DNA of 64,000 bases from Thermosphaera aggregans (GTDB lineage: Archaea; Thermoproteota; Thermoprotei_A; Sulfolobales; Desulfurococcaceae): positions 1,044,582 through 1,108,581 of the forward strand of contig NZ_CP063144.1 of the NCBI RefSeq assembly GCF_014962245.1, in the 5' to 3' direction. The notes under the pieces were generated by a model. That model made no database searches and was not told the origin of the DNA. It saw only the letters and a program-made list of their open reading frames with translations. Position 1 is the stretch's first letter. Each line of letters opens with the position of its first letter. This document shows, one piece after another, positions 24,563-58,620 of this stretch. A program made the position numbers and the translations under genes.

Positions 24563-25507
24563 TCAGGGGATGAGAAGAGCTAAGATTGCTTTCTGCGCGT
24601 GCTTCCTGTTCTCAGCTTGATCCCACACAACGCTCCATTTTCCATCGATAACTTCGTTAACAACTTCCTCTCCTCTGTGAGCAGGGAGGCAGTGCATAAA
24701 GATTGCATCGCTCTTCGCCTTCCTCATCAATTCCACCGTCACCCTGTAAGGCTCCAGATCCCTAATCCTCCTCTCTCTTTCCTTATCCTGCCCCATACTA
24801 ACCCATACATCCGTGTACACTACATCCGCGTTCTCTACAGCCTGGTATGGATCCCTCAAAATTTCGTAAGACCCTCCATTCGGAGCTGCATACTCGTTGA
24901 ACAATTTCACGACGCTGGGGTGGGGCTCGTATCCATTGGGGGAGGCTATGATGACTTTACCTCCCAATATCCCGACCGCCAGCATTAAGCTGTGGAGGAC
25001 GTTGTCCCCTCCATCACCAACAAACACTATTTTCAGTCTTGAGATATCTCTCCCCTTCTTCTCGATAATGGTTAAAACATCGCTGAGCGCTTGAGCGGGA
25101 TGGTGCAGGTCGCTTAAGCCGTTGATAACTGGAACACTAGCGTATTCAGCAAGTTTTTCAATCTTGTAATGCTCGTAAACACGCGCCATTATCCCGTCAA
25201 CATACCTGGACAATACCCTAGCAGTATCCTCTATGGTCTCGCCCCTGGCCAGCTGGAGCTCGCTAGAGCTGAGATATATTGCGTCCCCGCCTAACTCTTT
25301 CATAGCGGTTTCAAAACTGAGCCTTGTCCTAGTACTTGGTTTTTCAAATATCATTGCCAAGTGTCTGCCGTGTAAAATAGGTATTACTCTCTCACCAGAT
25401 AGGTACCTTTGCTTAAGCTGCATTGCTGTTTCAAGCATGAACCATAATTCCTCTCTGGTATACTCCGTTAAAGTGAGAAAGTCCCTACCTTTCAGACTCG
25501 ACACCAT
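24563..25507 (-). CDS. argF: Ornithine carbamoyltransferase
   Basis: A 314-residue transcarbamoylase with all ornithine-type motifs: STRTR carbamoyl-phosphate site (58-62), HPAQ (136-139), DVWVSMG (234-240) and HCLPA (272-276). It forms citrulline from ornithine and carbamoyl phosphate. Start ATG 25507 is chosen because residues encoded upstream (to 25567) are not family-like and GGTG precedes this ATG. It is divergent from a DUF711 gene. Of the three carbamoyltransferase-family genes in the window, only this one keeps the canonical ornithine-binding motifs. Confidence 0.92.
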   Translation of the reverse strand: MVSSLKGRDFLTLTEYTREELWFMLETAMQLKQRYLSGERVIPILHGRHLAMIFEKPSTRTRLSFETAMKELGGDAIYLSSSELQLARGETIEDTARVLSRYVDGIMARVYEHYKIEKLAEYASVPVINGLSDLHHPAQALSDVLTIIEKKGRDISRLKIVFVGDGGDNVLHSLMLAVGILGGKVIIASPNGYEPHPSVVKLFNEYAAPNGGSYEILRDPYQAVENADVVYTDVWVSMGQDKERERRIRDLEPYRVTVELMRKAKSDAIFMHCLPAHRGEEVVNEVIDGKWSVVWDQAENRKHAQKAILALLIP

Positions 25508-25580
25508 GTTGCAACACCAGTAAACTAAATTACTGGGTTGCCTAATATATGTGAACACTGCTGCCAAGTAGGTTGATAAT

Positions 25581-26645
25581 ATGGAGAACCTGGTTGTCAG
25601 GGCTGTAACTTACTTCTCAACATCCAGGCATATTGGCAATGCTTACAACGAGATAGTTGAGGCCGAGTCGTTGTTGAAGTCTGTGGAGAAATCTCTCAGC
25701 AAGCATGGCTACAGCGTTTTTACCAAGAGACTTTCATTTCCAGGTTTAGACCCCCGATCTGCAGAGAAAATAGTTGAATACCTGGCTGGCTCAGACCTTC
25801 TTGTTTCAATAGGTTATCAGAAAATACGGAGGCTCGGCCTCGAGGACGCAGTGTATTTTACAGGGAATGGTTTCTACGTTCCCATTCTCTACAATGGGGA
25901 AGACCCCTTAGTGTTTGCTAACAAAGCGAGCGAAATAATTACCAGGGCTGCTGAGCAGAACCCGGTGAATGCTACGAGAATTGCGTTAGGATTCCACTCA
26001 AAAGACTTCACTACCCCCTACTTCCCGGATTCTTCAACCACTGGTAAGGCTAGGTTGGCGTTGGCTTTTCTATATCCTAAAGCCCTCATTGGTGAAACAG
26101 GTGAGAATATTGATATTCAAACTGCTTTTGAAAGAGTGTTTGCGGAAATTCATCGCGTTGCAAAACTTGTTGAAGAGCAAACAGGCATTCCTGTGAAAAT
26201 AGACTACAGCTTATCACCCTGGATGGAGAACAGCGTTGCCGATTTGTTTGAGAAGCTTGGATACAGTCTCCTGCAACCAGGAGCTAATTACGCCATCAAC
26301 CTGTTGAACAGCCTGATTCGAAAATACATGGATAAGGAGAGGGCCGTGGGCTTCAACGAGGTTATGCTACCGTATGCGGAGGACTCACTTCTTGTCAAGT
26401 ATGGTTCTGAAAAACTCCTAAGAGCAAGGGATTTCCTCCTCTTCGCCTCCACGTGCGTTGCAGGAGTAGACATGATCGTGATCCCAAGCGAGAAGCGAAG
26501 CCTCATGAAACTCATACTTGATACTTACGCACTGCGGCTGGTTAAGAAGAAGCCGCTCGCGTTCAGAGCTATACCCGTGCCGGGAAACCCTGGCGACTCC
26601 TTGGAAATGGGGAAATTTGGCAAACCAGTAATACTTGGGTACTAG
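25581..26645 (+). CDS. DUF711-like protein
   Basis: A 354-residue protein resembling the DUF711 family, with the conserved segment FHSKDFTTPYFPDSST and a C-terminal VPGNPGDSLEMGKFG. The family is cytosolic and of unknown reaction; a relation to glycyl-radical or formyltransferase enzymes has been suggested only loosely. It lies between two carbamoyltransferase genes, which makes involvement in the same nitrogen metabolism possible. Start ATG 25581 is the only good one. Confidence 0.65.
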   Translation: MENLVVRAVTYFSTSRHIGNAYNEIVEAESLLKSVEKSLSKHGYSVFTKRLSFPGLDPRSAEKIVEYLAGSDLLVSIGYQKIRRLGLEDAVYFTGNGFYVPILYNGEDPLVFANKASEIITRAAEQNPVNATRIALGFHSKDFTTPYFPDSSTTGKARLALAFLYPKALIGETGENIDIQTAFERVFAEIHRVAKLVEEQTGIPVKIDYSLSPWMENSVADLFEKLGYSLLQPGANYAINLLNSLIRKYMDKERAVGFNEVMLPYAEDSLLVKYGSEKLLRARDFLLFASTCVAGVDMIVIPSEKRSLMKLILDTYALRLVKKKPLAFRAIPVPGNPGDSLEMGKFGKPVILGY

Positions 26646-26758: not shown

Positions 26759-27832
26759 ATGGGTAGAGGAAAACCCTGGTTCGTAGGACTCCTACACGGC
26801 CAAGACTGGCTATCAAACTATGATCACGACATAGACACAGTGGTAAAGGTGTTGAAAGCTGCGCGAGAACTGAGGGAGATATACCATAACGGTATTAGAA
26901 AGGTAACATGGCTCGACGGGAAAATGCTCTACCTCATCTTCTACAATAAGAGCCTTAGAACTAGAAACAGCTTCCAAACCGGAATATATCAGCTTGGAGG
27001 ACAGGCAACATACATTAGCCCAGACCAAGTATATGCTCCAACCCTTCCCGAGGACATGATCCCATATCAGACAGAAGCCATTAGCGATGTTGCCAGAGTG
27101 TTGAGCAGGTATGGAGATGGAATCGCGATTAGAATATACGGTGATGCTGCTAAATGGATTATAGGCAGAGGTCACAGGATCATCAGGGAGTTCGCCAAAT
27201 GGGCTGACATCCCCGTCTTGAACATGGAGGACGATGTCTGGCACCCGTTCCAGGCGCTAGCAGATGCTCAAGCCGCATTCGACGCTCTCGGCTGGCCGAA
27301 AGACCTGAGAGGAAAGAAGGTTGTGGTAAGCTACGCCTACAGCGGAGGGTTAAAGCCTCTCGCAGTCCCACAGGATGTTGCAACAATGTTCGCCATGATG
27401 GGCGCTGACGTGTATGTTGCACACCCACCAGGCTTCGAACTCATGGATGAAGCAATGAACAAGGCAAGAGAGTATGCCAAGCACTGGGGCGCTGAGTTCA
27501 AGATAGTTTACGACATGGACGAGGCATTCGAGGGCGCAACCATCGTGTATCCGAAAGCATGGAGCCCGAAGGGCTTCTTCCCACCATACAACAGCACCGT
27601 AGACAAGGAAGGAGCGAAAGCCTACCAGGAGAAGTTCAAGAACTGGATTGTCACAAGGGAGAGGCTTGAGAAGGCTGGAAAACCATACTACATGCACTGC
27701 GGACCCGCTGACAGAGGCCAGGAAGTAACGGACGAAGTCTTAGACTCGTACGAGAAGAGCCTCTACTTCGAGGAAGCAGAGAACAGGCTACATGTTCAAA
27801 AAGCCGTTATGGCCATGACTCTAGGAGAGTAA
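26759..27832 (+). CDS. YgeW-like knotted carbamoyltransferase of unknown substrate
   Basis: A 357-residue aspartate/ornithine transcarbamoylase-family protein. The carbamoyl-phosphate loop is SLRTR (65-69) instead of STRTR, HPFQ is at 162-165, and the acceptor-site motif is HCGPADRG (313-320) instead of HCLP. The stretches KPLAVPQ (199-205), AHPPGFEL, YPKAWSP (264-270) and QEVTDEV are shared with the bacterial YgeW group (recalled, not searched), which is part of anaerobic purine/ureide breakdown. This enzyme may phosphorolyse a carbamoylated compound to carbamoyl phosphate for the carbamate kinase at 31.6 kb; direction and substrate are inference. It has its own promoter. Confidence 0.85.
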   Translation: MGRGKPWFVGLLHGQDWLSNYDHDIDTVVKVLKAARELREIYHNGIRKVTWLDGKMLYLIFYNKSLRTRNSFQTGIYQLGGQATYISPDQVYAPTLPEDMIPYQTEAISDVARVLSRYGDGIAIRIYGDAAKWIIGRGHRIIREFAKWADIPVLNMEDDVWHPFQALADAQAAFDALGWPKDLRGKKVVVSYAYSGGLKPLAVPQDVATMFAMMGADVYVAHPPGFELMDEAMNKAREYAKHWGAEFKIVYDMDEAFEGATIVYPKAWSPKGFFPPYNSTVDKEGAKAYQEKFKNWIVTRERLEKAGKPYYMHCGPADRGQEVTDEVLDSYEKSLYFEEAENRLHVQKAVMAMTLGE

Positions 27833-29695: not shown

Positions 29696-29875
29696 ATGAA
29701 CTTCTCTTTCAAAGAAAATAAGCAGCATCGAAACGGTCTTGACTCACACGGATTTACAAATGGGAGTTTCCGAGAACTGTTAGTGCCACTCACAACAATA
29801 TTCATAAAAGAATTTTACAAAAAAATTAATATAATATGTGCAGAACAAGTGCGAAGAATTAATGGTGGAAAATGA
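29696..29875 (+). CDS. Possible 59-residue small protein ahead of the DNA glycosylase
   Basis: An open frame of 59 codons begins at ATG 29696 directly after a well-placed TATA box, and its TGA overlaps the ATG of the glycosylase gene (ATGA). The product is basic and, in its second half, helical (IFIKEFYKKINIICAEQVRR). The last codons coincide with the GGTGG ribosome site of the next gene, so the C-terminus is partly constrained by that. It resembles nothing I know. Translational coupling supports a real gene; alternatively it is a chance frame in an AT-rich leader. Confidence 0.4.
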   Translation: MNFSFKENKQHRNGLDSHGFTNGSFRELLVPLTTIFIKEFYKKINIICAEQVRRINGGK

Positions 29876-30786
29876 AGATAGAAGGCATACATTATGGTTT
29901 AACACTGATGTATTCGTACCTCCTCCCCTTCTTTGAGATAAAGGAAACAAGTAATGGATTCATATTTGCTAAGAAATACGGGGTTTTAAAAGGATTGAAA
30001 TGTACTTTTCACGAGGATTCTCTTCTCACTATTTGCGATGCTTCATCAGTTTCTTCATTAGAGAAGAGACATATTACTAGCCTTCTCGGATTAGATAAGA
30101 CAGTATTATTTAAACAACTTTCTAGCTTTTCAGAAGATAATCTCATAGGTGAAATAACATTAATGTTTAGTCCGCTGGACGCTGAAAACATTTTTAAAAC
30201 AATCCTCCTATCCAGAAACACTGATTACTTTACTAACACCATAAGATGGGTAAAGGATTTACTAGAAGGCATTGACATATCTAGAACCTATTCTTCATAC
30301 ATTCCTAAAATGTTAAAGCAATTTAACGAGCACTTACCAGGAATTGATTTCTTGAGTTTAAACAGTAATTCTATCAGACAACTGCTAGAGATAAGGCATA
30401 TAGGTGCGAAAACAGTTTCAGCCTTACTGCTTCATGGATATGGCAATACTCTATACGCGCCCGTAGATAGGCATTTTTCTAAGCTTCTGTCCCTTCGGTT
30501 CGCAATTAGTGAGCCCTTGAAAAAATACTGTATGGAGAATGCCATGGAATGTCTCAACTGCAGGCATGGGTTGAAATGTAAATACGGCATATCCATGAAA
30601 ACATTCGGAGATTACAATGGGGTCATACAGTCAATATCATACATAGCCTCTAGACTTGAGAGAAAACCTAGTGAATTAGAAAGCATTCTTCTCAAAAATA
30701 GAAGAACCTATAAGCGTCTTACCAAAATCGTTAAAGACCTAGTTGAAAAATTCAATAAGGATTTTTCACAGAAAATATCTCGATAA
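29872..30786 (+). CDS. Divergent endonuclease III-like HhH-GPD DNA glycosylase with [4Fe-4S] cluster
   Basis: A 304-residue base-excision repair protein. The helix-hairpin-helix reads IRHIGAKTVSALLLHGYGN (174-192), with catalytic lysine K180 and aspartate D199 (APVDRHFSK) in the places of EndoIII K120 and D138. The cluster ligands C220, C227, C230, C236 have exactly the C-x6-C-x2-C-x5-C spacing of endonuclease III. The N-terminal 100 residues are extra and recall an OGG-type N-domain only vaguely. It should remove a damaged base and nick the strand; lesion specificity is unknown. Base composition is more AT-rich than neighbours. A radical SAM gene follows two bases after the stop. Confidence 0.85.
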   Translation: MKIEGIHYGLTLMYSYLLPFFEIKETSNGFIFAKKYGVLKGLKCTFHEDSLLTICDASSVSSLEKRHITSLLGLDKTVLFKQLSSFSEDNLIGEITLMFSPLDAENIFKTILLSRNTDYFTNTIRWVKDLLEGIDISRTYSSYIPKMLKQFNEHLPGIDFLSLNSNSIRQLLEIRHIGAKTVSALLLHGYGNTLYAPVDRHFSKLLSLRFAISEPLKKYCMENAMECLNCRHGLKCKYGISMKTFGDYNGVIQSISYIASRLERKPSELESILLKNRRTYKRLTKIVKDLVEKFNKDFSQKISR

Positions 30787-30788
30787 TA

Positions 30789-31568
30789 ATGGCAGGATAC
30801 AACCCTATCGTCCTGTCCGAAGCTGTTAAGAACCATGTTTGCAGGACAACCCAGAGAGGAGAGGAGAGAAAGTACTATAGGTTTAGAGGTGGTAAATGGT
30901 ACGGTGGCATAGCTACAGGCGATGTGGTAGGTTGCAATTTGAGGTGTGGCTTCTGCTGGAGCTGGAGGTTTAGCCATGTTTTCACTGGTGGTTGGTTTGA
31001 GTCTGCCGAATCAGCGTTTCAAAAAATACTGGAAATAGCGAGCAAGCATAACTATGAGTATGTGAGGTTGAGCGGTGGGGAGCCCACTATATCTAGAAGC
31101 CACCTACTAAAGATTATTGAATTGTTTTCTGAAACACATTACACCTTCATACTCGAAACTAATGGTTTACTGATAGGGTATGATCCAGACTACGCTAGGG
31201 ATCTGGCAGAGTTTTCAAATTTGGTGGTAAGGGTTAGTCTAAAAGGAGCATCTGAAGAAGAATTCCATGCTTTAACCGGGGCAGACCCGTCTTTTTTCAG
31301 GATGCAGTTGAAGAGTTTGGAGAACCTCTTAGCCTCCGGTTTCAAGCCGTGCAGGGAGGTTTACCCTGCGGTAATGTTGAGCTTCTCAACACCGGGGTCA
31401 TATAATCAGTTAAAGAGAGAGCTTTCCATGATGAGCCAGTCATTCCTTTCCTGCATTGATGAGGAATACGTTATTCTATATCCGCATGTAAAGGAGATTA
31501 TGAAGAGAAGAGGCCTTAAACCAAAAATCTCCTACACGCCTGAAGGAGTACCCGATTTCATGATTTAA
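30789..31568 (+). CDS. Radical SAM protein
   Basis: A 259-residue protein with the cluster motif C-x3-C-x2-C at C49, C53, C56 (CNLRCGFCW) and the SAM-binding SGGEP at 95-99. It has the partial TIM-barrel length of activase-like radical SAM enzymes (COG1964/PflA-like), and no SPASM extension. It begins two bases after the glycosylase stop codon, so both are in one transcript; whether the enzyme modifies nucleic acid, protein or a metabolite is not known. Confidence 0.85.
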   Translation: MAGYNPIVLSEAVKNHVCRTTQRGEERKYYRFRGGKWYGGIATGDVVGCNLRCGFCWSWRFSHVFTGGWFESAESAFQKILEIASKHNYEYVRLSGGEPTISRSHLLKIIELFSETHYTFILETNGLLIGYDPDYARDLAEFSNLVVRVSLKGASEEEFHALTGADPSFFRMQLKSLENLLASGFKPCREVYPAVMLSFSTPGSYNQLKRELSMMSQSFLSCIDEEYVILYPHVKEIMKRRGLKPKISYTPEGVPDFMI

Positions 31569-31617
31569 AAGCTTAATGATTCATTCTTATTTGATAAATG
31601 AGAAGGTGTACGGTATG

Positions 31618-32586
31618 AACGGCGTGAAGGAAGTTGTTGTCGTCGCACTAGGTGGAAACGCGTTCCAGAGCAAGGGAGATAAGGGAACAGTTGAAGAGTA
31701 CTGGAGAAACGCGTATACTTCAGCAGAATTCATTGCAAGACTCATCGGGGAAGGATATGGCGTGGTCGTGACCCATGGAAACGGCCCCCAGGTAGGCATA
31801 ATCGCTGAGTGGATGATGGCTGGGTTGAAGGAGAAAAATCTGCCGCCAATGAGCCTTGACATTGCAGGTGCTATGAGCCAGGGATGGCTGGGCTATCTTC
31901 TACAGCAAGCCTTGTACAATAAGTTAATGGAGAAGAACCTCATGGGTAAGGTTGTTAAAGGCGTAGTAACAATTGTGACTCAAACCCTTGTCGACAAGAA
32001 CGATCCAGCCTTCAAAGACCCTACTAAATACATTGGCCCATGGTATGAGAAAGAGGAGGCTGAGAAGCTGGCTAAAGAGTTTGGATGGGTTTTCAAGCCC
32101 GATCCACGCGGAGGGTATAGAAGAGTAGTAGCATCCCCTGACCCGGTTAGACAAATAGAGATTGATGCTATACGGAGACTAGTGGATGACGGGTTCGTAG
32201 TGATAGCTGACGGCGGAGGAGGCATACCCGTCTACTTTGATGACAATGGGAAACTCCGCGGCGTGGAAGCCGTTATCGACAAAGACCTTGGCGCAGAGAG
32301 AATGGCTGCCGCGGTGGGAGCAGACATATTGTTGATTCTCACGGATGTTGAGAAAGTCTATCTAAACCATGGGAAGCCTGATGCTAAGCCGATCGATCAA
32401 ATGACCGCTAGCGAAGCGTTAAAGTATTACAAGGAAGGACATTTCAAGCCGGGAAGCATGGGGCCGAAAGTACTGGCTGGAGTAAGATTCGTGCAGAACG
32501 GTGGTAAGTTAGCAATAATAGCGCACTTAAGCCAGGCCTACGAAGCCATTAAAGGAAATGCTGGAACCAGGATTGTACCAGGTTAG
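31618..32586 (+). CDS. arcC: Carbamate kinase
   Basis: A 322-residue amino-acid-kinase-fold enzyme interconverting carbamoyl phosphate + ADP with carbamate + ATP. Signature segments are VALGGNAF (10-17), HGNGPQVG, GGGGIPV, and KPGSMGPKVLAG near the end. ATG 31618 follows AAGGTG; an ATG at 31576 lacks a ribosome site. In hyperthermophiles this enzyme can run anabolically, as a carbamoyl phosphate synthetase, or catabolically for ATP. Here it lies among a YgeW-like transferase and an SsnA-like deaminase, and 6 kb from argF, so both directions must be considered. No arginine deiminase gene is present. Confidence 0.93.
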   Translation, partial: NGVKEVVVVALGGNAFQSKGDKGTVEEYWRNAYTSAEFIARLIGEGYGVVVTHGNGPQVGIIAEWMMAGLKEKNLPPMSLDIAGAMSQGWLGYLLQQALYNKLMEKNLMGKVVKGVVTIVTQTLVDKNDPAFKDPTKYIGPWYEKEEAEKLAKEFGWVFKPDPRGGYRRVVASPDPVRQIEIDAIRRLVDDGFVVIADGGGGIPVYFDDNGKLRGVEAVIDKDLGAERMAAAVGADILLILTDVEKVYLNHGKPDAKPIDQMTASEALKYYKEGHFKPGSMGPKVLAGVRFVQNGGKLAIIAHLSQAYEAIKGNAGTRIVPG

Positions 32587-33547: not shown

Positions 33548-33588
33548 ATACTGTGGAATTGAAATTATTAAAAGCGAAGGTGGGTTTC

Positions 33589-34977
33589 TTGAGGGATAAG
33601 GTTGACATTCTAGTCTCCAATGGGTTAATAGTCACAATGAATGATGAGCGGAGAGTGGTTGAAAACGGGTATGTAGCGGTCTCTGGGGATCGGATCATAG
33701 ATGTTGGTGTCGGAGATGGAAGGGATAAGTATACTGCTGAGGAAATCATTGATGCACGAAAACACATAGTACTACCCGGGTTAATGTGCGCTCACACTCA
33801 TTTCTACGGTCTCTTGCTGACAGGCAGCCCATGGTTCTCGAAAATAGAGCCTCCGACAGACTTCCAGCAAAACCTTCAAAGGATTTGGTGGGCCCTCGAT
33901 GTGCTACTGTCCTATGAGGAAGCATACGCTTCAGCATTAATGGGGTCTATAGAGTTCGTGAAATCCGGAGTTACCTTCTTCTTTGATAACATAAGCGCGC
34001 CAAACGCTATAAACGGCGTGCTTGACTATATTGAGAAAGCCGTGAACGAGGTTGGGATAAGAGGCTACCTAAGCTTCGAGGCAACTCAAAGGCGTAGCCT
34101 ACAGGAGGGATTAGAAGGCCTTAAGGAGAATGAGCGCTTCATCCGGAAGAACAATATGGATGAGAGCAAGCTGGTTAAGGGCGCGATTTACTTACACGCA
34201 AGCTTCACGGTTTCAAACGATTTATTCCTCAAGGCAAGAGAGCTTGCAAACAAATACCATGCCCTGCTATCGATACATGCTGAGGAAGGCTTGGTCGATG
34301 TATACCATAATATTGAGCGGTATGGTATACGTCCTATTGAGAGAATGGAGAGGCTTGGATTCCTGGGAGATGATGTCATACTGGTGCATGTGGTCAACGC
34401 GACCGATGATGAAATTAAAATCATAAAGAAAACGGGGGCGCATGTTGCCCACAACGCTATGAGCAACATGTTGAACGCTGTAGGTGTTGCCAAGATACCG
34501 GAAATGATGGAGCAAGGCGTTAACGTGGGGATAGGTAATGATGGATACATCTTCGACCACTTTGAAAACATGCGCTCAACATACCTCATACATAAAGTAT
34601 GGAAGAGAGATCCAAGGATTATGACTCCTCTTCAAATACTTGAAATGTCCACAGTCAATGTGGCAAGAATGTTCAAGGTTTGGAAGGAGCTGGGAAGCAT
34701 AGAGCCTGGTAAAAAAGCCGACATAGTCTTGATAAAACCCGAACTACCCTCGACACCGGTTAACTCTAAAACAGTTTACGGACACCTTGTTAACACTGTG
34801 AATAGCAGGGATGTCAAAACCGTTATTGTGAATGGAAAGCTAGTTATGAAGGACAGGGTGGTCTTAAACATTGATGAGGAAAAATCCATAGATTATGTTC
34901 ACAAGGTTGTTGAAAAACTATGGGAAAAGCTCATTGAGAAGGGAGAATACCAGTTAGACGTTCTAGACAAGCCGTAG
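33589..34977 (+). CDS. SsnA-like amidohydrolase (putative aminohydrolase/deaminase)
   Basis: A 462-residue metal-dependent hydrolase of the chlorohydrolase/guanine deaminase group. Metal ligands are visible at H69 and H71 (AHTHF), H203 (LHASF), H230 (SIHAEEG) and D318 (GNDGY). The segments LPGLMCAHTHFYGLLLTG and NLQRIWWALDVLLSYEEAY align well, from memory, with bacterial SsnA, a member of the ygeW-yqeA-ssnA-ygfK set. A TTG at 33589, four bases after AAGGTGGG, is the likely start; a GTG at 33553 would add twelve residues and has no site. It should deaminate or dehalogenate a heterocycle; substrate unknown. Confidence 0.85.
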   Translation: MRDKVDILVSNGLIVTMNDERRVVENGYVAVSGDRIIDVGVGDGRDKYTAEEIIDARKHIVLPGLMCAHTHFYGLLLTGSPWFSKIEPPTDFQQNLQRIWWALDVLLSYEEAYASALMGSIEFVKSGVTFFFDNISAPNAINGVLDYIEKAVNEVGIRGYLSFEATQRRSLQEGLEGLKENERFIRKNNMDESKLVKGAIYLHASFTVSNDLFLKARELANKYHALLSIHAEEGLVDVYHNIERYGIRPIERMERLGFLGDDVILVHVVNATDDEIKIIKKTGAHVAHNAMSNMLNAVGVAKIPEMMEQGVNVGIGNDGYIFDHFENMRSTYLIHKVWKRDPRIMTPLQILEMSTVNVARMFKVWKELGSIEPGKKADIVLIKPELPSTPVNSKTVYGHLVNTVNSRDVKTVIVNGKLVMKDRVVLNIDEEKSIDYVHKVVEKLWEKLIEKGEYQLDVLDKP

Positions 34978-35324: not shown

Positions 35325-35460
35325 AATTTTTTAGATTTACACTTCTTACCCTTATCACCCTGTTTTTCAACGAACTCTCGCATCACTGAACGGTAATTGA
35401 TGTTGATAAAACTTTTTTACTTGAGTAGTTAACAATTAATCGGTACAGTGGGTGAAACGT

Positions 35461-36672
35461 GTGGTAGATCTATCTGTAGAAATAGCCGGTATAAAGATGA
35501 AAAACCCCATTATGAATGCTGCATGCCCGATCTCCCGCGATGCTGAAACAATGAAGCTGTTGATCGAAAACGGGGTTGGAGGAGTTGTTGCGAAAACAAT
35601 TAGCGTCAAACCCGCCATTGTTCCAAGGCCGAGCATGGCCGTTGTGGACAGGGGAATGGGTAGGTTTTACTACTTGAAAACCTTAAAACCAGGGGATGTT
35701 AGGATAACTCCGGTGGATGCGGGAAACCATAGATTTATACATGCCTTCCTCAACGCCGAGCTATGGAGCGATATCCCTGCTGAACACTACTTAGAGCGTG
35801 AATACCCAATAGTCAAAACCTACTGCAGGGAGCGGGGGGTGGCTTTCTTTGTCAGCATAGGCTACAAGCCCGAAGAGCTAGCGCTGCTTGGTCCTAAAGT
35901 AGAGAAAGCAGGCGCAGACGCGATCGAATTCTCCACGCATTACATAGGAAAAGACTATCGCCCCGTAATAGAGGCTGCTAAAGCCCTTAGAGAATCCGTA
36001 TCAATCCCCATCTTCGCCAAGCTCAGCCCGTTCACTCCTAACATACCGGAGCTGGTGAGAGAGCTCGAAAACGTCCGCGTCGATGGAATCGTAGCTACAA
36101 ACACTATTGGACCTGCATTGAGCATAGATGTTGAAACCGGTATGCCAATAGTCGGAGGCCCCTACGGGTACGGGTGGATGAGCGGCCCGGCTCTGAAGCC
36201 CATTTCTCTGGCCGTGGTGGCGGAGGCAGCGAAGAGTACTAAACTCCCAGTTATAGGGGTTGGAGGGATTACCAGAGGCGTGGACGTTATCGAGTACTTC
36301 ATGGCTGGGGCATCAGCTGTTCAAATATGTACAGCCGCACTAGTTGAAGGGTTCAGCGTGTTCCAGAGAATTTTAAGCGAGACTAAGACATGGCTTGAAA
36401 AACACGGGTACTCGAGCATACTGGACGTGAAAGGACTGGCGTTGAAGCATTTGAAACCTGAGCCGAGAAGGGTTTGGGCTAAGCCGCCTGTAGTTGATGA
36501 GAAAAAATGTATTGGCTGCGGGTTCTGCCAGCAAGTCTGTGACTACGATGCAGTGCATGTTGAAGAATCCAGCAACGGTAAGAGATTGGCTGTTGTGGAC
36601 AAGACAAAGTGTTATGGGTGCGGTCTCTGCACCTCTGTGTGTCCAACCAGGGCTATCCATTTTGAAGAGTAA
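35461..36672 (+). CDS. PreA-like dihydropyrimidine dehydrogenase-type flavoprotein with two [4Fe-4S] motifs
   Basis: A 403-residue protein: a DHODH-type TIM barrel (1-330) with FMN-binding K187 (FAKLSP) and GVGGI (266-270), followed by two C-x2-C-x2-C-x3-C ferredoxin motifs (C350/353/356/360 and C384/387/390/394). This is the architecture of the PreA subunit. The place of the usual substrate-loop N-x-S-C-P motif reads EFSTHYIG (156-163), so the catalytic cysteine or serine loop is altered. GTG 35461 is taken as start, six bases after GTGGGTG; GTG 35452 lies within that site. No PreT-like diaphorase is adjacent. Confidence 0.85.
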   Translation: MVDLSVEIAGIKMKNPIMNAACPISRDAETMKLLIENGVGGVVAKTISVKPAIVPRPSMAVVDRGMGRFYYLKTLKPGDVRITPVDAGNHRFIHAFLNAELWSDIPAEHYLEREYPIVKTYCRERGVAFFVSIGYKPEELALLGPKVEKAGADAIEFSTHYIGKDYRPVIEAAKALRESVSIPIFAKLSPFTPNIPELVRELENVRVDGIVATNTIGPALSIDVETGMPIVGGPYGYGWMSGPALKPISLAVVAEAAKSTKLPVIGVGGITRGVDVIEYFMAGASAVQICTAALVEGFSVFQRILSETKTWLEKHGYSSILDVKGLALKHLKPEPRRVWAKPPVVDEKKCIGCGFCQQVCDYDAVHVEESSNGKRLAVVDKTKCYGCGLCTSVCPTRAIHFEE

Positions 36673-45847: not shown

Positions 45848-46795
45848 CTAGATCACGCCGCGATAGTACACTTCTTTTTCCCAAGCGGTTTTCACAGCTT
45901 TCTTCATAGTTACAAGGTTTTCCGCTGAGATCACTCCATTATCGCCGTAAATACTTCTCAACTCCCTGAAACTTAAGGGTTTTCTCAAAATATGGTTATA
46001 CACGAGTCTAATCAAGCCGTGCTTTTGGATGCCTGGTTCGAAGTTAACGCTACCGTAACAGACAACCGGCTTAATCCCATTCTCCTCCAGTATTTCAGCA
46101 TATTCACTTATCAACCTGGGGTTGACTGAGTGTATCTTCTCGCTTACAAAACGGTTAATGGTTTTCAAATAAATTCTTTCCGCGCCAACCCTTCGCGCCT
46201 GCTTTGCGATCTCCCTCAAAGACTCGGTTGAAGGTGTTAAAGATCCTGCAAACTTAAAAACGGTGATTTCAAGCCCCAGCTTCCCCGGGTATCTCCTGTT
46301 AAACTCTGACAGTATTTCAAGAAAAGTTGTAATGGACACCGCAGGTTCCCATCCAAACTCGAGCCTTATCTCAGAGGCCCATTCAAATGGGATTACAAAT
46401 TCGTCAACGTCTTCAAATAGCCCTGAAGAATAATACTGGGGTAGGAGAAGACCTGAAGTATGGATAATTACTTTATCAGCTTGGCTTTCCGCTCTCACAG
46501 CCTTGACCGCTTCAGATATTCGGCGATTCAATAATGGGTCTCCAAAACCCCATACATATACCTTTCTAGCCAGCGTACCAATGTACTCGTATAGCTCTTT
46601 TAACTCTTCAACAATCTTACCAAGGTTTACCTCTTGCTCTTTCGCTGTCCTGGTTCTATCCACCGTTTTACCCAGGGGGCACCACGAACAGTCAAGAGGG
46701 CATTTTTTGGGCGGTAAAAGTATGTCCAGCCCCAGGGTTAACCCGAAACATCTACTGGGGTGAACACCGTAAGCATAGTCTATACTTAGCTTCAA
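45848..46795 (-). CDS. Radical SAM protein
   Basis: A 315-residue radical SAM enzyme with C32, C36, C39 (KCPLDCSWCP) and a GFGDPLLN segment for SAM binding. The C-terminal 70 residues resemble a winged helix. The TTG start is next to the stop of the RNA methyltransferase gene and has AGGTGAT just upstream, so the two are coupled. The family is the COG0731/COG1964-like Elp3-unrelated group; the reaction is not known. Coupling with an m5C methyltransferase suggests RNA modification, which is inference. Confidence 0.82.
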   Translation of the reverse strand: MKLSIDYAYGVHPSRCFGLTLGLDILLPPKKCPLDCSWCPLGKTVDRTRTAKEQEVNLGKIVEELKELYEYIGTLARKVYVWGFGDPLLNRRISEAVKAVRAESQADKVIIHTSGLLLPQYYSSGLFEDVDEFVIPFEWASEIRLEFGWEPAVSITTFLEILSEFNRRYPGKLGLEITVFKFAGSLTPSTESLREIAKQARRVGAERIYLKTINRFVSEKIHSVNPRLISEYAEILEENGIKPVVCYGSVNFEPGIQKHGLIRLVYNHILRKPLSFRELRSIYGDNGVISAENLVTMKKAVKTAWEKEVYYRGVI

Positions 46796-53351: not shown

Positions 53352-54965
53352 CTAGCCCACCTTCACGTATTGGAAGAATATTACATACATATACAGCGGG
53401 TTCATGGCTTCCCTGGGGATTTCTATTTTCGGATTATAGATGAATGGCTTCACCTCATCCCAAAGATTGATAGCTACCGTCTCATTGAATAGTATTTCCT
53501 GTGCTTGATAGTATTTATCCATAGCGGCTTGGTAATCCTCACCCTCCAGCTCCCAAGCCTCATCTATTAGCTCATCGAAAACAGGGTTCTCATAGCCCGC
53601 ATAATTCCACTCTTTCGACTCGCTGTGAAACATCGGGTATAGGTAGTCGTAGGGGCTTGGAATAGTTGGCCACCAGTCGGCAATTACCAAATGAGGAGTG
53701 TTATCAGGGTTCTCCCAAACACCTTTAGCAATGTCCTTCAAAGCGGTCCACGGCTGAGGGTTTAATACAACTTCAATGCCCAGCTGGAGAAGCCTTGATT
53801 TCAACGTCTCGGCCAGAATTCTGTTCTCCTCGTAATCAACCTGGTATAGAAACTCAATGGTGACAGGGGTTTCAACACCTGAGAGGCTCAAGTACTCTCT
53901 AGCTAGAGATAGGTTGTAACGGTAGGTTAGATTGTCCGCGTGGCCCGGGAAGTAGTGTGGGACCACACCGCTACCTTTAAGTGCGAAACCCTTCATGCAT
54001 AACTGAACCAGTTCGTCTAGGTCTATCGCGTGTGCCACCGCGAGCCTGAACTCTGTTATGTTCGTTGGATACCTCTTAGTGTTGAAGAATAGTATGTAGT
54101 TGTGATAGGTTGTGAGATTGTAGTTTTTGTACCCTTTACTTAGCAATTGGCCAACATAATCCCTGGGCACGCTTGAAACTATGTCTACCTCGCCCGAGGT
54201 TAACCCGTTGTACTGCGACTGGGGTTCGGTGAGAATTTTAATAATCACGTAATCAGGGGCGTGAGGATTGTTCACTAATTTCCAACCCCACCATTCCTCG
54301 AATTTTTTAAGCCTGACTTCCTTATCCGGCTTGTAATCCTCAATCATGTATGGCCCGGTGCCTGCGGAATGCCCCTGGTTGAACCACTGCTCTATTTTCC
54401 CATCAAGAATATCACTGGCTCCAGCTTTCTCAATAACGGAGGGGGAGAATATGTATGCTGCATATGAGGCTGAGGCTATGAAATCTAGCCTTGCCGGGTA
54501 ATCTAGGATGAATTTAACCGTGTAGGCATCCAGTATTTCGATGCTTGAAACCATATCCCAGATATATCCCATTCCACGCCCCGTTGACCTATACACGTCT
54601 CTTGCTCTTTCAATACTGATTTTAACAGCAGTAGCGTTGAAAATAGTGCCATCGTGAAACACTACTCCTTCTCTTAGCTTAAAAACCCATTCTGTCCCAT
54701 CTTCATTACTTGTCCAGTTGACTGCTAAGGCAGGTTTAAATTCATCACTCCTGGGGTCGTAATAAAGGAGGGGCTCATATACTGATCCCAATACGACTAA
54801 TCCAGTATCGTCTTCCACGCTGGGGTCTATCCCCGTAATCCTGTCGTTATAGGCGTAGACCACAACTTTTCTAGTAGTCTCAGGACGTTGAAGAGAAAAC
54901 CATGCTAGAGATCCGATCGCAATCAAAACCACAATAATTCCCACTATTAACAATCTCCTACTCAA
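53352..54965 (-). CDS. Oligopeptide-binding protein (family 5 solute-binding)
   Basis: A 537-residue extracellular binding protein, first gene of the opp operon. Residues 4-24 form an N-terminal membrane anchor (LLIVGIIVVLIAIGSLAWF), followed by the family 5 fold with GSVYEPLLYYDP, LREGVVFHDGTIFNA, and GTGPYMIEDYKPDK. No lipobox cysteine is seen, so anchoring is by the helix. TTG 54965 has GGTGG seven bases before it; TTG 54971 is too near. Ligand is presumably a peptide. Confidence 0.92.
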   Translation of the reverse strand: MSRRLLIVGIIVVLIAIGSLAWFSLQRPETTRKVVVYAYNDRITGIDPSVEDDTGLVVLGSVYEPLLYYDPRSDEFKPALAVNWTSNEDGTEWVFKLREGVVFHDGTIFNATAVKISIERARDVYRSTGRGMGYIWDMVSSIEILDAYTVKFILDYPARLDFIASASYAAYIFSPSVIEKAGASDILDGKIEQWFNQGHSAGTGPYMIEDYKPDKEVRLKKFEEWWGWKLVNNPHAPDYVIIKILTEPQSQYNGLTSGEVDIVSSVPRDYVGQLLSKGYKNYNLTTYHNYILFFNTKRYPTNITEFRLAVAHAIDLDELVQLCMKGFALKGSGVVPHYFPGHADNLTYRYNLSLAREYLSLSGVETPVTIEFLYQVDYEENRILAETLKSRLLQLGIEVVLNPQPWTALKDIAKGVWENPDNTPHLVIADWWPTIPSPYDYLYPMFHSESKEWNYAGYENPVFDELIDEAWELEGEDYQAAMDKYYQAQEILFNETVAINLWDEVKPFIYNPKIEIPREAMNPLYMYVIFFQYVKVG

Positions 54966-55001
54966 TTCCAACCCACCACATGGTTAACTAGAAACAACTA
55001 G

Positions 55002-55010
55002 CTTTTAAAT
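55002..55010 (-). promoter_or_regulatory. TATA box of the opp operon
   Basis: On the minus strand ATTTAAAAG about 35-45 bases before the binding-protein start. It shares a 120-base divergent control region with the carbamoyltransferase gene. Confidence 0.5.
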
Positions 55011-55038
55011 TGTTTTAAGCTTTGACCGTTTAACCATG

Positions 55039-55048
55039 TTTTTAAATA
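55039..55048 (+). promoter_or_regulatory. TATA box of the third carbamoyltransferase gene
   Basis: GTTTTTAAATA about 40 bases before ATG 55086; GGTGA at 55076-55080 is the ribosome site. Confidence 0.5.
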
Positions 55049-55085
55049 CGTCCCCGGTAGATAATTACAATTGCTGGTGAAGTAA

Positions 55086-56150
55086 ATGCCTGCGTTGCGA
55101 CACCTTGTCAGAGAACTAAGCGGTAAAGACCTCATCTCAACCCTTGACTGGACAGATGAGCAGATAGAAATAGCCTTGAACCTTGCGAAAGAGTTCAAGG
55201 AAATAGCACATTACTACGGAGTAGAGCACATCCCGAAAATACTCGCTAGTAAAGTATTCTACATGCTATTCTTCGCCGGCTCGACAAGAACCAGGGCAGC
55301 ATTCGAGTCGGGAATGGCCTTCCTGGGCGGTCATGCAGCGTTCATTGATGCTACAACGACGAGAATGGCTTTTGGGAAACAGGAGAAGGCTGGCGAAGCT
55401 ATTAAGGACGTTGCCGCGATGTACGATGTGTACGGGCATGGGCTTGGGATAAGGATCCTAGACAAGGCTATCGACTACCTGTACGGTGTAGGAAACGCCT
55501 ATATAAGGGAAATGGCTCAGGCGGCTAACATCCCTGTCATCAACATGGCTGACGACATGTTCCATCCTACTCAGGGTTTAGCCGACATCTACACGTTCAA
55601 GGAAAGGTTCGTGAACCCGCAGGGCAAGAAATACGTGATAATGTGGGCTTACAGCCCAGAGATCAGGGGGTGGTGCAGCGTACAGGAGGACATGATCCTC
55701 TTCCCGAGGTTTGGAGTAGACGTTGTTATTGCAAGGCCGCCGGGATTCGACCTGGATCCGAAGCTGGTTGAAAAAGCCAGGGAACTGGCTAAGGAGCACG
55801 GGGGAAGCCTGGAGATAACGGATAACTTGCAGGAGGCTGTGAGAGGGGCTCACGCCGTATTCCCGAGAAACTGGGCCTCACCAACCCTTGTCCAGGTCGG
55901 CTACAGCAAGTTTAAGGATGAGGAGCTGAAGATTTACGAGAAGTATCGGAGCTGGAAGGTTACAAGGGAGTTAATGGATTTGATGGACAAGAAAGGAGTA
56001 TTAATGCATGTATTACCAATCTTCAGGGGCTATGAAGCCGATGATGATGTGATTGACGATCCGAAGAAATCGGTGATTTACGAGCAGGCTGAGAACGGTT
56101 TATGGACGAAGATGGCGGTGTTAGCGTTAACAATGTATGGAGTTAAATGA
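55086..56150 (+). CDS. Carbamoyltransferase-family protein with altered acceptor site
   Basis: A 354-residue paralogue of argF and of the YgeW-like gene at 26.8 kb. The carbamoyl-phosphate site STRTR is intact (66-70), as is HPTQ (160-163), and it shares ARPPGFDL and FPRNWASP with the YgeW-like enzyme. The acceptor motif reads MHVLPIFRG (307-315): the cysteine of HCLP is valine. It should use carbamoyl phosphate with an acceptor other than ornithine. It is divergent from the opp operon, hinting that the imported ligand might be related to its substrate (inference). Confidence 0.83.
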   Translation: MPALRHLVRELSGKDLISTLDWTDEQIEIALNLAKEFKEIAHYYGVEHIPKILASKVFYMLFFAGSTRTRAAFESGMAFLGGHAAFIDATTTRMAFGKQEKAGEAIKDVAAMYDVYGHGLGIRILDKAIDYLYGVGNAYIREMAQAANIPVINMADDMFHPTQGLADIYTFKERFVNPQGKKYVIMWAYSPEIRGWCSVQEDMILFPRFGVDVVIARPPGFDLDPKLVEKARELAKEHGGSLEITDNLQEAVRGAHAVFPRNWASPTLVQVGYSKFKDEELKIYEKYRSWKVTRELMDLMDKKGVLMHVLPIFRGYEADDDVIDDPKKSVIYEQAENGLWTKMAVLALTMYGVK

Positions 56151-56613: not shown

Positions 56614-57555
56614 ATGAAGTGCTACTTTATCGAGGAGAAAAGCATCAGGATCAAAGGAGTCAAGTACGTGGTTGATTGTGTCGTTGAGGAAAAACGGTAT
56701 GGGGATGTTAAAGAGATACGAGACATGGTTAATGCTGTTTTCTATGCAGTCTTCGATGTGAAAAACCCCTTCAAGCTGGTCTTCGAGTCAAACGAGCCTA
56801 TCGGGAGCAGCCATTTACTGTACAGGTTTAGGTACATGTTAGATAACGGACGATTCATTGGCGTTAGGGTTGTAACTAAGAACAATGCTGTTAGAAGAGT
56901 ATTGTTTACGGTTCCCGAGGAGCCCGGTAAATTAAACCTCAATATCGGCCTTGCCAACGAGCAACCTGTTCTCACGGAGTATAATGATCCTAGTAGTAAA
57001 GAGCAACCTCCTGGTCAGGTGTTCATTCCTAATTTCGTTATATACAATATCCTTGGAATACCTAAATTCAATGTTGAAGAATGGCGGCTAGAGGTATCAG
57101 GCTTAGTTGAAAACCCGGTGACCCTTGACCTCGAAGGGTTGTTCAGATTTGGTTTAGCCGAATATTTAATCGATTTTCACTGCGTTACAGGCTGGAGCGT
57201 TGGAAACATTAGAATGAAAGGTATCCCCTTTGAGCGAATCCTCAGCCTGGTTAAACCAATGGAAGGTGTTAAATGGATCTACACGGAAGGGATGGACGGG
57301 TATACCACAATATTCCCCTTTGAAGAGGTTTTGAAACCAAACGTTTTCCTAGCTTTAGAGATGAATGGTCGACCCCTCGAATTTCTCCACGGGTATCCGG
57401 TAAGACTCATAGTACCCCATCTCTATGGATGGAAGAGCGCTAAGTGGTTGAGAAAGATAGTTTTCACGGATAAATATGTTAACGGGTACTGGGAGTCCTT
57501 TGGATACCATCCCAGGGGGAGGGTTTTCGAGGAGGAAAGGTTTAAGGATTATTGA
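56614..57555 (+). CDS. Cytosolic sulfite-oxidase-fold molybdopterin oxidoreductase
   Basis: A 313-residue protein whose residues 135-313 are a sulfite oxidase-type Moco domain: C190 in DFHCVTGWSV is the metal-ligating cysteine, followed by GIPFERIL, and LPLRL-like PVRLIVPHLYGWKSAKW. About 120 N-terminal residues have no family I know. There is no Tat or Sec signal, so unlike exported YedY/MsrP it should work in the cytosol. Cofactor insertion would depend on MoeA at 9.9 kb. Substrate is unknown. Confidence 0.85.
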   Translation: MKCYFIEEKSIRIKGVKYVVDCVVEEKRYGDVKEIRDMVNAVFYAVFDVKNPFKLVFESNEPIGSSHLLYRFRYMLDNGRFIGVRVVTKNNAVRRVLFTVPEEPGKLNLNIGLANEQPVLTEYNDPSSKEQPPGQVFIPNFVIYNILGIPKFNVEEWRLEVSGLVENPVTLDLEGLFRFGLAEYLIDFHCVTGWSVGNIRMKGIPFERILSLVKPMEGVKWIYTEGMDGYTTIFPFEEVLKPNVFLALEMNGRPLEFLHGYPVRLIVPHLYGWKSAKWLRKIVFTDKYVNGYWESFGYHPRGRVFEEERFKDY

Positions 57556-57565
57556 AAACGTTTCA

Positions 57566-58531
57566 TCAAGGATTAAGATTGAGGTAATACTTGTTCCTGG
57601 CTAAAGAGTCTATGGTGTACAGCGCAATCGTCGATGCAGTTATATCCGCTACCGAGGCTGGATTAACCCTCATTCTCCTAATCTCCGTGTCCAAAGATGT
57701 TATGAGGCTTAACCATTCCGACTGAGGAGCTACGAGGAGTTTTATTACATATGTGCTCGCCAAATCTCTAACCCTGGAAGCTGCTTCAAAACCATGTTCC
57801 CTTGCAATCACGGTATCGTGTTCTCTGCTTAACAAGTGCACGTACGTCTCAACCACTGCGCGGTTCCAGTTTTTATGGGCGTTAAACCTTTCAGCCAGGA
57901 ATCTCAGCTCGTTAACACTCCTTGGCAATCCATTAACCAACTCATGAGATACTATATCATGCGAAGTGCTGAACTCTAAAACATCCTTCAACCTCTGCTT
58001 CTTAGACCTCAGCTTCTTCTTGTAATCATGATCCCATACGTTGACGAAATCTCCTGTTTCATCAGTAGGCTTGATATAGCTGGGTCTAGCCTCCCTTACA
58101 GCCCTGTAGAATTCTACAGAATCCTCGACAGATGTTGCTGATAAAACCTCGCGGATCATTCTTAAAAAACAGTTGAGGTTTTCCTCTTCTTTTCTCAAAC
58201 ACAAGCCTATGGCAACACTTAGTGGTGCTATAAGCAGGCTTGAACCTAAGCATGTATTAGTCGAACCCGATTTCCGCATGGAATCCGCTACAATACCGTA
58301 GACCAGGTCACCGAAGACTACATCACCCCAGCCCTTAATACCTCTCCTCACGCCTTTCTCCAAGTACTTTGTAGCTACAATACCTGTTACTATGAATGCC
58401 TCATACGGTAGCCCCGGGAGGTCATGTATCCTATCAACATTGCCGGGTTTAGGATAGCCGGAGGCTTCCAGCGTGAACGCCAGGGACAGTGCTTCAGCAT
58501 ACTCCACGGGATCTGGCAAACTAACCCCCAT
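57566..58531 (-). CDS. CitG/MdcB-like triphosphoribosyl-dephospho-CoA synthase family protein
   Basis: A 321-residue all-helical protein like CitG: LEASGYPKPGNVDR near the start (the G-NV-D nucleotide loop), GDVVFGDLVYGIVADSMRKSG-type helix pair, then SSLLIAPLSVAIG. CitG makes the prosthetic group of citrate lyase from ATP and dephospho-CoA. No citrate lyase or malonate decarboxylase gene is nearby, so the archaeal role is likely different. Start ATG 58531 is about 25 bases behind TTTTTATT, suggesting a leaderless transcript; a GTG at 58573 is the alternative. Convergent with the molybdoenzyme, ten bases apart. Confidence 0.75.
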   Translation of the reverse strand: MGVSLPDPVEYAEALSLAFTLEASGYPKPGNVDRIHDLPGLPYEAFIVTGIVATKYLEKGVRRGIKGWGDVVFGDLVYGIVADSMRKSGSTNTCLGSSLLIAPLSVAIGLCLRKEEENLNCFLRMIREVLSATSVEDSVEFYRAVREARPSYIKPTDETGDFVNVWDHDYKKKLRSKKQRLKDVLEFSTSHDIVSHELVNGLPRSVNELRFLAERFNAHKNWNRAVVETYVHLLSREHDTVIAREHGFEAASRVRDLASTYVIKLLVAPQSEWLSLITSLDTEIRRMRVNPASVADITASTIALYTIDSLARNKYYLNLNP

Positions 58532-58620
58532 CTTAAATAAGCCAATCCGGAAATAAAAAGAAGGCTTTGGCACGTGCAGTTTATTAACAACGCGTTAAAT
58601 CATTATAGCATGGTGATAGC

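Follow-up and report, generated by a model that had tools for sequence, protein, structure and literature searches.

Gene context places a carbamoyltransferase of Thermosphaera aggregans in a putative archaeal variant of reductive purine degradation

The reductive degradation of urate in anaerobic bacteria, whose chemistry was worked out by Li et al. 2025 (PMC12507026), involves a series of enzymes with distinct roles. In the sections of that paper drawn on here, which also describe the biochemistry of the E. coli urate cluster, urate is reduced to yanthine, with dearomatisation by YgfK or UacX and opening by SsnA and HyuA leading to 2,3-diureidopropionate. One ureido group is then removed by YgeW through phosphorolysis and the other by YgeY through hydrolysis, and pyruvate is released by YgeX. 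A bacterial association of a dehydrogenase termed 'X1' with hyuA, ygeW, ygeY, ssnA, xdh and yqeA was noted by Barba et al. 2013 (PMC4016543). The transcarbamylase superfamily is defined by the motifs SxRT, HPxQ and HxLP, the second position of HxLP being variable, and the relevant passages of a review (PMC4581275) assign second-substrate specificity to loops and to this variable residue. Neither an archaeal gene set nor a pair of carbamoyltransferases is described in the sections of PMC4016543 and PMC12507026 drawn on here, and the string 'archae' has zero occurrences in the main text of the latter. No report of an archaeal version of the pathway was found in the literature searched, which lay mostly outside subscription journals.

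The window analysed here is a stretch of 64,000 nucleotides from the T. aggregans genome, which comprises 1,305,106 bases in a single contig (C1) and is 99.86% complete. At 55086..56150 on the plus strand, an open reading frame with an ATG start encodes a carbamoyltransferase of 354 residues, CT1, with the Pfam domains PF02729 (116 bits, cut-off 29.9) and PF00185 (134 bits, cut-off 29.4). Its nearest named relatives, at 89%, come from Thermosphaera, Thermogladius and other Desulfurococcaceae MAGs, so that a hyperthermophilic lifestyle is probable for the host. Genome-wide, PF02729 has exactly three members, all within the window: CT1, a partner carbamoyltransferase CT2 (26759..27832, plus strand, 357 residues, with SLRTR, HPFQ, HCGP and K266) and a true ornithine carbamoyltransferase, OTC (24563..25567, minus strand; TIGR00658 409 bits, cut-off 280.85), whose nearest E. 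coli protein is ArgI and which may also feed carbamate kinase. PyrB was not found by this search, which suggests that the genome does not support de novo pyrimidine synthesis via aspartate carbamoyltransferase. A DUF711 protein (25581-26645) is encoded between OTC and CT2; the same arrangement is seen in locus L054 and is missing from L051 and L053.

Neither CT1 nor CT2 reaches any curated cut-off of NCBIfam; AOTCase and OTC are the best models, and YgeW follows closely. For CT1, the best model is AOTCase (NF003384, 196.5 bits, cut-off 288), followed by OTC (TIGR00658, 190.8 bits, cut-off 280.85) and the two YgeW models, neither of which is reached (NF005538, 131.3 bits, cut-off 453; TIGR03316, 122.3 bits, cut-off 500). 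The nearest E. coli protein is YgeW (b2870) both for CT1 (30%, E 4.6e-43) and for CT2 (29%, E 3.9e-41), and the two are 38% identical to each other. In an alignment of all rows, CT1 and CT2 share an extended 120s loop and an extra proline-rich loop at the knot position, both missing from OTC; these inserts are given as sequence signatures of knotted transcarbamylases in the relevant passages of PMC4581275. A tree of 78 of the 116 aligned rows, the others having been removed as near duplicates by locus, separates CT1, CT2, YgeW and AOTCase from OTC (support 99/81). CT1 forms one clade (44 rows, 100/98) and CT2 another (24 rows, 84/84), so the two are old, distinct lineages and no recent duplication. 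YgeW and AOTCase sit on long branches, and the place of YgeW inside the knotted group is not fixed by this tree. L142 and L144, which are CT2 by BLAST, and the Bathyarchaeota locus L121 lie outside the CT2 clade.

Structure models confirm the predicted transcarbamylase fold of both proteins (pLDDT 78.7 for CT1, from 15 sequences; 74.8 for CT2). Among the matches listed, the best for CT1 by both Foldseek and VIA is the OTC of P. furiosus (1a1s; Z 36.1, rmsd 2.3 over 310 residues). The unknotted OTC and a knotted AOTCase (Z 34.7) score about equally, and the models reveal neither the knot state of CT1 or CT2 nor a preference for AOTCase over OTC. YgeW is absent among the matches listed for CT1, which carries no weight as evidence.

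All three superfamily motifs are present in CT1, whose key residues are STRTR (66-70), R123, HPTQ (H160-Q163), R261, MHVLP (307-311, with HVLP at 308-311) and G338. The carbamoyl-phosphate residues S66, R68, T69, R70, R123, H160 and Q163 are kept in 71 of 71 CT1 rows. At the second HxLP position the same rows have Val (58), Pro (7), Cys (5, seen in the copies from Hermodarchaeota) or a gap (1), and the counterpart motif of CT2 is HCGP (23/38) or HCLP (15/38). Since this position is variable in the superfamily, the valine represents subfamily variation and not the loss of a defining residue; a reading of HCLP to HVLP as loss of function is ruled out by the conservation of Val over the CT1 subfamily. 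The position of R261 is Arg in every CT1 row, Lys in every CT2 row (38/38), Lys in YgeW and AOTCase, Asp in OTC and Thr in PyrB. The contrast of Arg and Lys is consistent with different second substrates and, given that specificity is assigned to the loops and the HxLP residue in the passages cited from PMC4581275, CT1 and CT2 probably bind different ones.

The original prediction, made from the DNA alone, had described CT1 as a third carbamoyltransferase paralogue with an intact STRTR and MHVLP at the acceptor site, closer to the YgeW-like paralogue 28 kb away than to ArgF. The three PF02729 genes, the motifs of the 354-residue protein and its 38% identity to CT2 agree with this account. The phylogeny of all three paralogues that it proposed as a check has now been built; it sets CT1 and CT2 in separate clades, both apart from OTC, and CT1 on the YgeW/AOTCase side of the family. 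The prediction had also pointed to valine in place of the HCLP cysteine, and the substitution is real, although most CT1 rows share it and no defining residue is lost.

Comparison with characterized relatives reveals both shared and distinct features. CT1 has in common with YgeW (PDB 3q98) the superfamily, the WAYSP and GxGNAYxRE loops, intact CP motifs and neighbours of the SsnA, carbamate kinase, XDH-like and hydantoinase-like kinds. In contrast to YgeW, CT1 has neither the long 240s insert with its extra helices nor the C-terminal extension, as judged from the alignment, and it is paired with a second carbamoyltransferase in the absence of YgeY. With AOTCase (PDB 3kzk) CT1 shares the lengthened 120s loop as well as the insert where the proline-rich (knot) loop lies, but it differs in HVLP for HCLP, R261 for Lys and its gene context. 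The overall fold is shared with the OTCs (24563-25567 and 1a1s), from which CT1 is set apart by the missing DxxxSMG motif, R261 for Asp, the extra loops and a separate clade. An anabolic role, as an AOTCase-like arginine enzyme or as a substitute for the missing PyrB, would suit the best NCBIfam model, a genome without PyrB, and the HxLP motif and Gly338, which recall PyrB (position 338 is Gly in PyrB and in CT1 of the source lineage, Arg in OTC and AOTCase). However, CT1 lies below the cut-offs of the AOTCase and aspartate carbamoyltransferase models, and its presence tracks UacX, SsnA and a hydantoinase-like gene and no biosynthetic set, which makes this role very unlikely.

The window holds further candidates for the enzymes of a purine-degrading module. 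Downstream of CT2 follow, in order, genes for a conserved 304-residue protein (29872..30786, plus strand; no NCBIfam, Pfam or PDB match), a radical SAM protein (30789..31568, plus strand), carbamate kinase (CK; 31576..32586, plus strand), an EamA transporter, an SsnA-like amidohydrolase (33553..34977, plus strand) and a UacX/PreA-like flavoenzyme (35452..36672, plus strand). CK is the sole arcC match of the genome (TIGR00746 378 bits, cut-off 358.25) and is 46% identical to E. coli YqeA. For the SsnA-like protein the best NCBIfam model is SsnA (NF005540, 368 bits, under the cut-off of 444), and it is closer to E. coli SsnA (31%, E 6e-56) than to GuaD (E 3e-11). The flavoenzyme, a candidate UacX, combines a DHO_dh barrel with two 4Fe-4S clusters, and an FAD domain was not found in it; this layout agrees with the published description of UacX. 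The 304-residue protein sits between CT2 and CK in all four loci of the source's own family (f1) that display the CT2-CK block, and the radical SAM gene is likewise kept in the family's block. A second radical SAM protein is encoded at 45848-46795. Downstream of CT1, a protein of the CitG type (triphosphoribosyl-dephospho-CoA synthase family; 57566-58573) adjoins an Oxidored_molyb protein (56614-57555), here in an archaeon.

Other candidate genes are scattered over several loci of the genome. An XDH-like molybdoenzyme of three subunits (C1:1134065-1137718), nearer XdhA (31%) than XdhD (28%), lies beside a CysK-like PLP gene (C1:1132728-1133735). About 10 kb beyond CT1 are genes for an adenine deaminase (C1:1110046-1111869; TIGR01178 491.5 bits, cut-off 472.5) and a deaminase-like amidohydrolase of 469 residues (C1:1111945-1113354), both of which stand directly beside CT1 in several relatives. 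The latter scores highest, though still under the cut-offs, with models for deoxyadenosine deaminase and related deaminases, which rules it out as HyuA. A hydantoinase-like cyclic amidohydrolase of 441 residues (C1:828261-829586) has L-hydantoinase 1gkr as its best PDB match (E 5.6e-59), 24% identity to HyuA (E 1.3e-44) and dihydroorotase/allantoinase as its best NCBIfam models, below cut-off. The CK, SsnA-like, hydantoinase-like and XDH-like proteins all match proteins of the E. coli urate cluster. A ThrC-like PLP enzyme (C1:809638-810906) is orthologous to the PLP enzyme of a six-gene operon found in relatives, which scores 343 bits on the threonine synthase model, above the cut-off of 303. 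The four of the genome's five PALP proteins that were compared with E. coli YgeX have no match to it at E 1e-3. For YgeY, the one TIGR03526 match of the genome reaches 135 bits, under the cut-off of 321.5. An M20 peptidase (C1:831469-832686) was set aside as a stand-in for YgeY because its orthologue does not track CT1, being found in the CT1-less genomes G057, G087, G089 and G090 and only remote in the operon-bearing G145, G150, G152 and G154.

In relatives, several of these genes form a compact operon. In the sister family f7, CT1, CT2, CK, SsnA, UacX and the PLP enzyme make up an uninterrupted six-gene run in all eight loci compared, and the full run is present in 11 of the 79 named CT1 loci. 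Labels in this survey are best BLAST matches (E<=1e-12) to a reference panel drawn from the window and from E. coli and are therefore coarse. Across the 79 loci, from archaea and some bacteria, the partners are CT2 (38, directly adjacent to CT1 in 28), the PLP enzyme (30), CK (27), SsnA (22) and UacX (21), then the deaminase-like amidohydrolase (17), XDH (9), the CysK-like gene (9) and adenine deaminase (8); hydantoinase-like genes (2), YgeY or M20 (2) and a peptide-type solute-binding protein (4) are rarer. Elsewhere, CT1 has adenine deaminase and another amidohydrolase as alternative neighbours. None of eight core partners occurs in the available stretch of 29 loci, many of which are on short contigs. 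The loci include Caldarchaeum-like, Hermodarchaeota, Bathyarchaeota, Thermoplasmata, Caldisericota, Bipolaricaulota and Elusimicrobia MAGs, and individual MAGs may contain binning errors.

Some further features were noted in these loci. The CysK-like PLP gene is repeatedly found next to XDH or CT2 (L066:5729-6736; L107, L109, L111, L116, L117 and L121) and is a second candidate for a diaminopropionate or albizziin lyase step. Genes of similar size recur beside CT2 in the Caldarchaeum-like loci L107, L111, L116 and L117; those of L107 encode a UbiA-type prenyltransferase, a PNPOx-like protein and an MFS transporter. On contig C97 of genome G125, fragments of CT1 and SsnA, interrupted by several stop codons, are found together, possibly a decaying copy of the operon or the result of sequencing errors.

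The closest neighbour of CT1 upstream is the gene for a peptide-type solute-binding protein (SBP; 53352..54971, minus strand) of a divergent opp operon, and the two are separated by a control region of 114 bp (54972..55085). Read by eye, the CT1 side contains a TATA-like TTTTTAAATA (55039-55048) and GGTG (55076-55079), and the opp side a TATA-like TTTAAAA on the minus strand near 55003-55009. Both promoters are flanked by a perfect 10-bp inverted repeat, ACATGGTTAA/TTAACCATGT (arms 54978-54987 and 55030-55039). The sequence CATGGTTAA occurs three times in the window against 0.43 expected, its third copy (56724-56732) lying inside the Oxidored_molyb gene. In L005, a copy from the same genus, the repeat is degenerate, and it was not seen in L006, L008 or the other relatives compared. 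A divergent SBP gene is found in nine of the 30 nearest loci (L004, L005, L006, L008, L009, L012, L013, L014 and L015, from three genera), a count based on 1.5-kb flanks, some of them cut by contig ends.

These observations bear on the proposal that CT1 is co-regulated with the opp importer and acts on a peptide or ureido ligand taken up by it, for which the divergent arrangement, the short gap and the repeat around the promoters would speak. The arrangement predicted between the two genes exists, with a length of 114 bp and not 120, but the functional link drawn from it is not supported: the divergent SBP is confined to a minority of the nearest loci and to four of the 79 named ones, the repeat is not conserved outside the genus, and CT1 has other, recurrent partners in other loci. 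That CT1 serves the importer is therefore extremely unlikely. We judge the opp importer to be a lineage-specific neighbour outside the module and no conserved partner, with local co-regulation in this genus being possible. As to the suggestion of carbamoylation or the reverse, coupled to ligand uptake, CT1 more likely works in the reverse sense, removing carbamoyl groups, and the tie to uptake is not supported.

The association of CT1 with the other candidate genes extends to whole genomes. Searches covered 214 genomes of the order, with thresholds chosen after viewing the gap in each list (CT1 E<=1e-80, UacX E<=1e-100, SsnA E<=1e-170, hydantoinase-like E<=1e-100, XDH at least 66% identity). 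At these thresholds, orthologues of all five are confined to families f1 and f7. Of the 71 genomes of these families, 34 were used (at least 90% complete, at most 5% contaminated); 34 were excluded for completeness below 90%, and G068, G091 and G149 for contamination above 5%. The 27 CT1-bearing genomes contain UacX (27), SsnA (26), the hydantoinase-like gene (27) and XDH (26), whereas the seven without CT1 contain them in one, one, one and no case, respectively. The exceptions are G060 (99% complete), with CT1 and no XDH orthologue, G064, without SsnA, and G070 (96% complete), which has UacX, SsnA and the hydantoinase-like gene and no CT1. The remaining 84 complete genomes of the order all fall short of every threshold. 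Fisher values range from 1.5e-6 to 3.5e-5 and, because the genomes are related, are no true probabilities. Among the excluded genomes, most of these being fragmentary, UacX occurs without CT1 in G061, G085 and G141, and CT1 without UacX in G067, G069, G092 and G148.

On this basis, we consider it fairly probable that CT1 works in catabolism, as a carbamoyltransferase of an archaeal version of reductive purine (urate) degradation. Gene content and order, co-occurrence, the active-site residues and the tree are observed, and membership of CT1 and CT2 in the module is well supported by context; we infer their substrates and direction, the order of the ureido cleavages, the ATP yield and the PLP step. 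A purine base would be processed by adenine deaminase and the deaminase-like amidohydrolase and then by the XDH-like molybdoenzyme, after which the UacX-like flavoenzyme would carry out reductive dearomatisation. The SsnA-like enzyme would open the first ring and the hydantoinase-like enzyme the second, yielding 2,3-diureidopropionate. CT1 and CT2 would each phosphorolyse one ureido group of this compound (R-NH-CO-NH2 + Pi -> R-NH2 + carbamoyl phosphate), and CK would form ATP from each carbamoyl phosphate, so that two carbamoyl phosphates would give two ATP. A fold-type-II PLP enzyme may finally convert 2,3-diaminopropionate to pyruvate and ammonia, the candidates being the ThrC-like operon protein and the CysK-like one adjacent to XDH. 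The set includes candidate counterparts for all steps up to diureidopropionate, together with CK; YgeY is missing and a second carbamoyltransferase is present instead, so phosphorolysis of both ureido groups is the most parsimonious interpretation. Confidence is lowest for the PLP step, because the operon enzyme exceeds the threonine synthase cut-off and no compared protein matches YgeX.

The proposed set would share with the pathway of Li et al. (PMC12507026), in the sections drawn on here, an XDH-type enzyme, a UacX-like flavoenzyme, an SsnA-like and a hydantoinase-like enzyme, a carbamoyltransferase, CK and a PLP enzyme. It differs in its two carbamoyltransferases, in the lack of a YgeY or YgeX homologue among the proteins compared, and in a PLP step assigned to a ThrC-like or CysK-like protein.

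Two other catabolic readings would involve the same genes. In reductive pyrimidine catabolism, UacX would be a PreA-type dihydropyrimidine dehydrogenase, the SsnA-like enzyme would open the dihydropyrimidine, CT1 and CT2 would phosphorolyse N-carbamoyl-beta-alanine and its methyl analogue, and CK would make ATP. The flavoenzyme has dihydropyrimidine dehydrogenase as its best PDB match and PreA as its best NCBIfam model (206 bits, under the cut-off of 335), two enzymes could serve uracil and thymine, and a catabolic beta-alanine transcarbamylase is raised as a possibility in the passages cited from PMC4581275. This scheme is nevertheless unlikely, as XDH, adenine deaminase and the PLP enzyme accompany CT1 and would be unneeded for beta-alanine, SsnA, which marks the urate pathway, is the closest match of the amidohydrolase, and a distinct hydantoinase-like gene is found in the same genomes. 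Alternatively, CT1 and CT2 might act catabolically with CK on allantoate, ureidoglycine or another ureido amino acid. CK is co-located with CT1 in 27 of 79 loci, and the Rubrobacter ureidoglycine carbamoyltransferase (UGTCase), as presented in the sections of PMC4016543 drawn on here, is a precedent: it phosphorolyses a purine-derived ureide and is encoded next to CK, but it belongs to the ATCase branch and to the oxidative allantoate route. UacX and SsnA, by the account in PMC12507026 cited above, are parts of the reductive route rather than the oxidative one, and the PLP enzyme suits diaminopropionate better than glyoxylate chemistry, which renders such a substrate quite improbable.

Several points count against the reductive purine pathway as the setting of CT1. 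Phosphorolysis is thermodynamically uphill, and in the data cited from PMC12507026 the product peak with YgeW was smaller than with the hydrolytic UacY. The SsnA-like and hydantoinase-like proteins lie below every curated cut-off, the genes are scattered in the source genome, 29 of 79 loci show no core partner in the available stretch, and G060, G064 and G070 depart from the co-occurrence pattern. In addition, CT1 has Gly338 in place of the C-terminal Arg of OTC and AOTCase; Gly at this position is, however, found in PyrB as well.

Beyond T. aggregans, we tentatively propose, as a possibility that may well turn out otherwise, that deep-branching archaea, including hyperthermophiles, ferment purines reductively, with the anciently diverged CT1 and CT2 phosphorolysing both ureido groups for two ATP per purine. 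If so, purine fermentation would extend to hyperthermophilic Desulfurococcales, Caldarchaeum-like archaea and Hermodarchaeota, and the bacterial version with YgeW and YgeY would be a derived or alternative form. Two orphan carbamoyltransferase clades would gain a testable function, and the pathway would gain a version whose ureido steps conserve twice as much ATP. A commentary (PMC12990295), in the part cited, regards the order of ureido cleavage as open. As CT1 and CT2 are separate enzymes, this order would be directly testable, and their substrate preferences would reveal which ureido group goes first.
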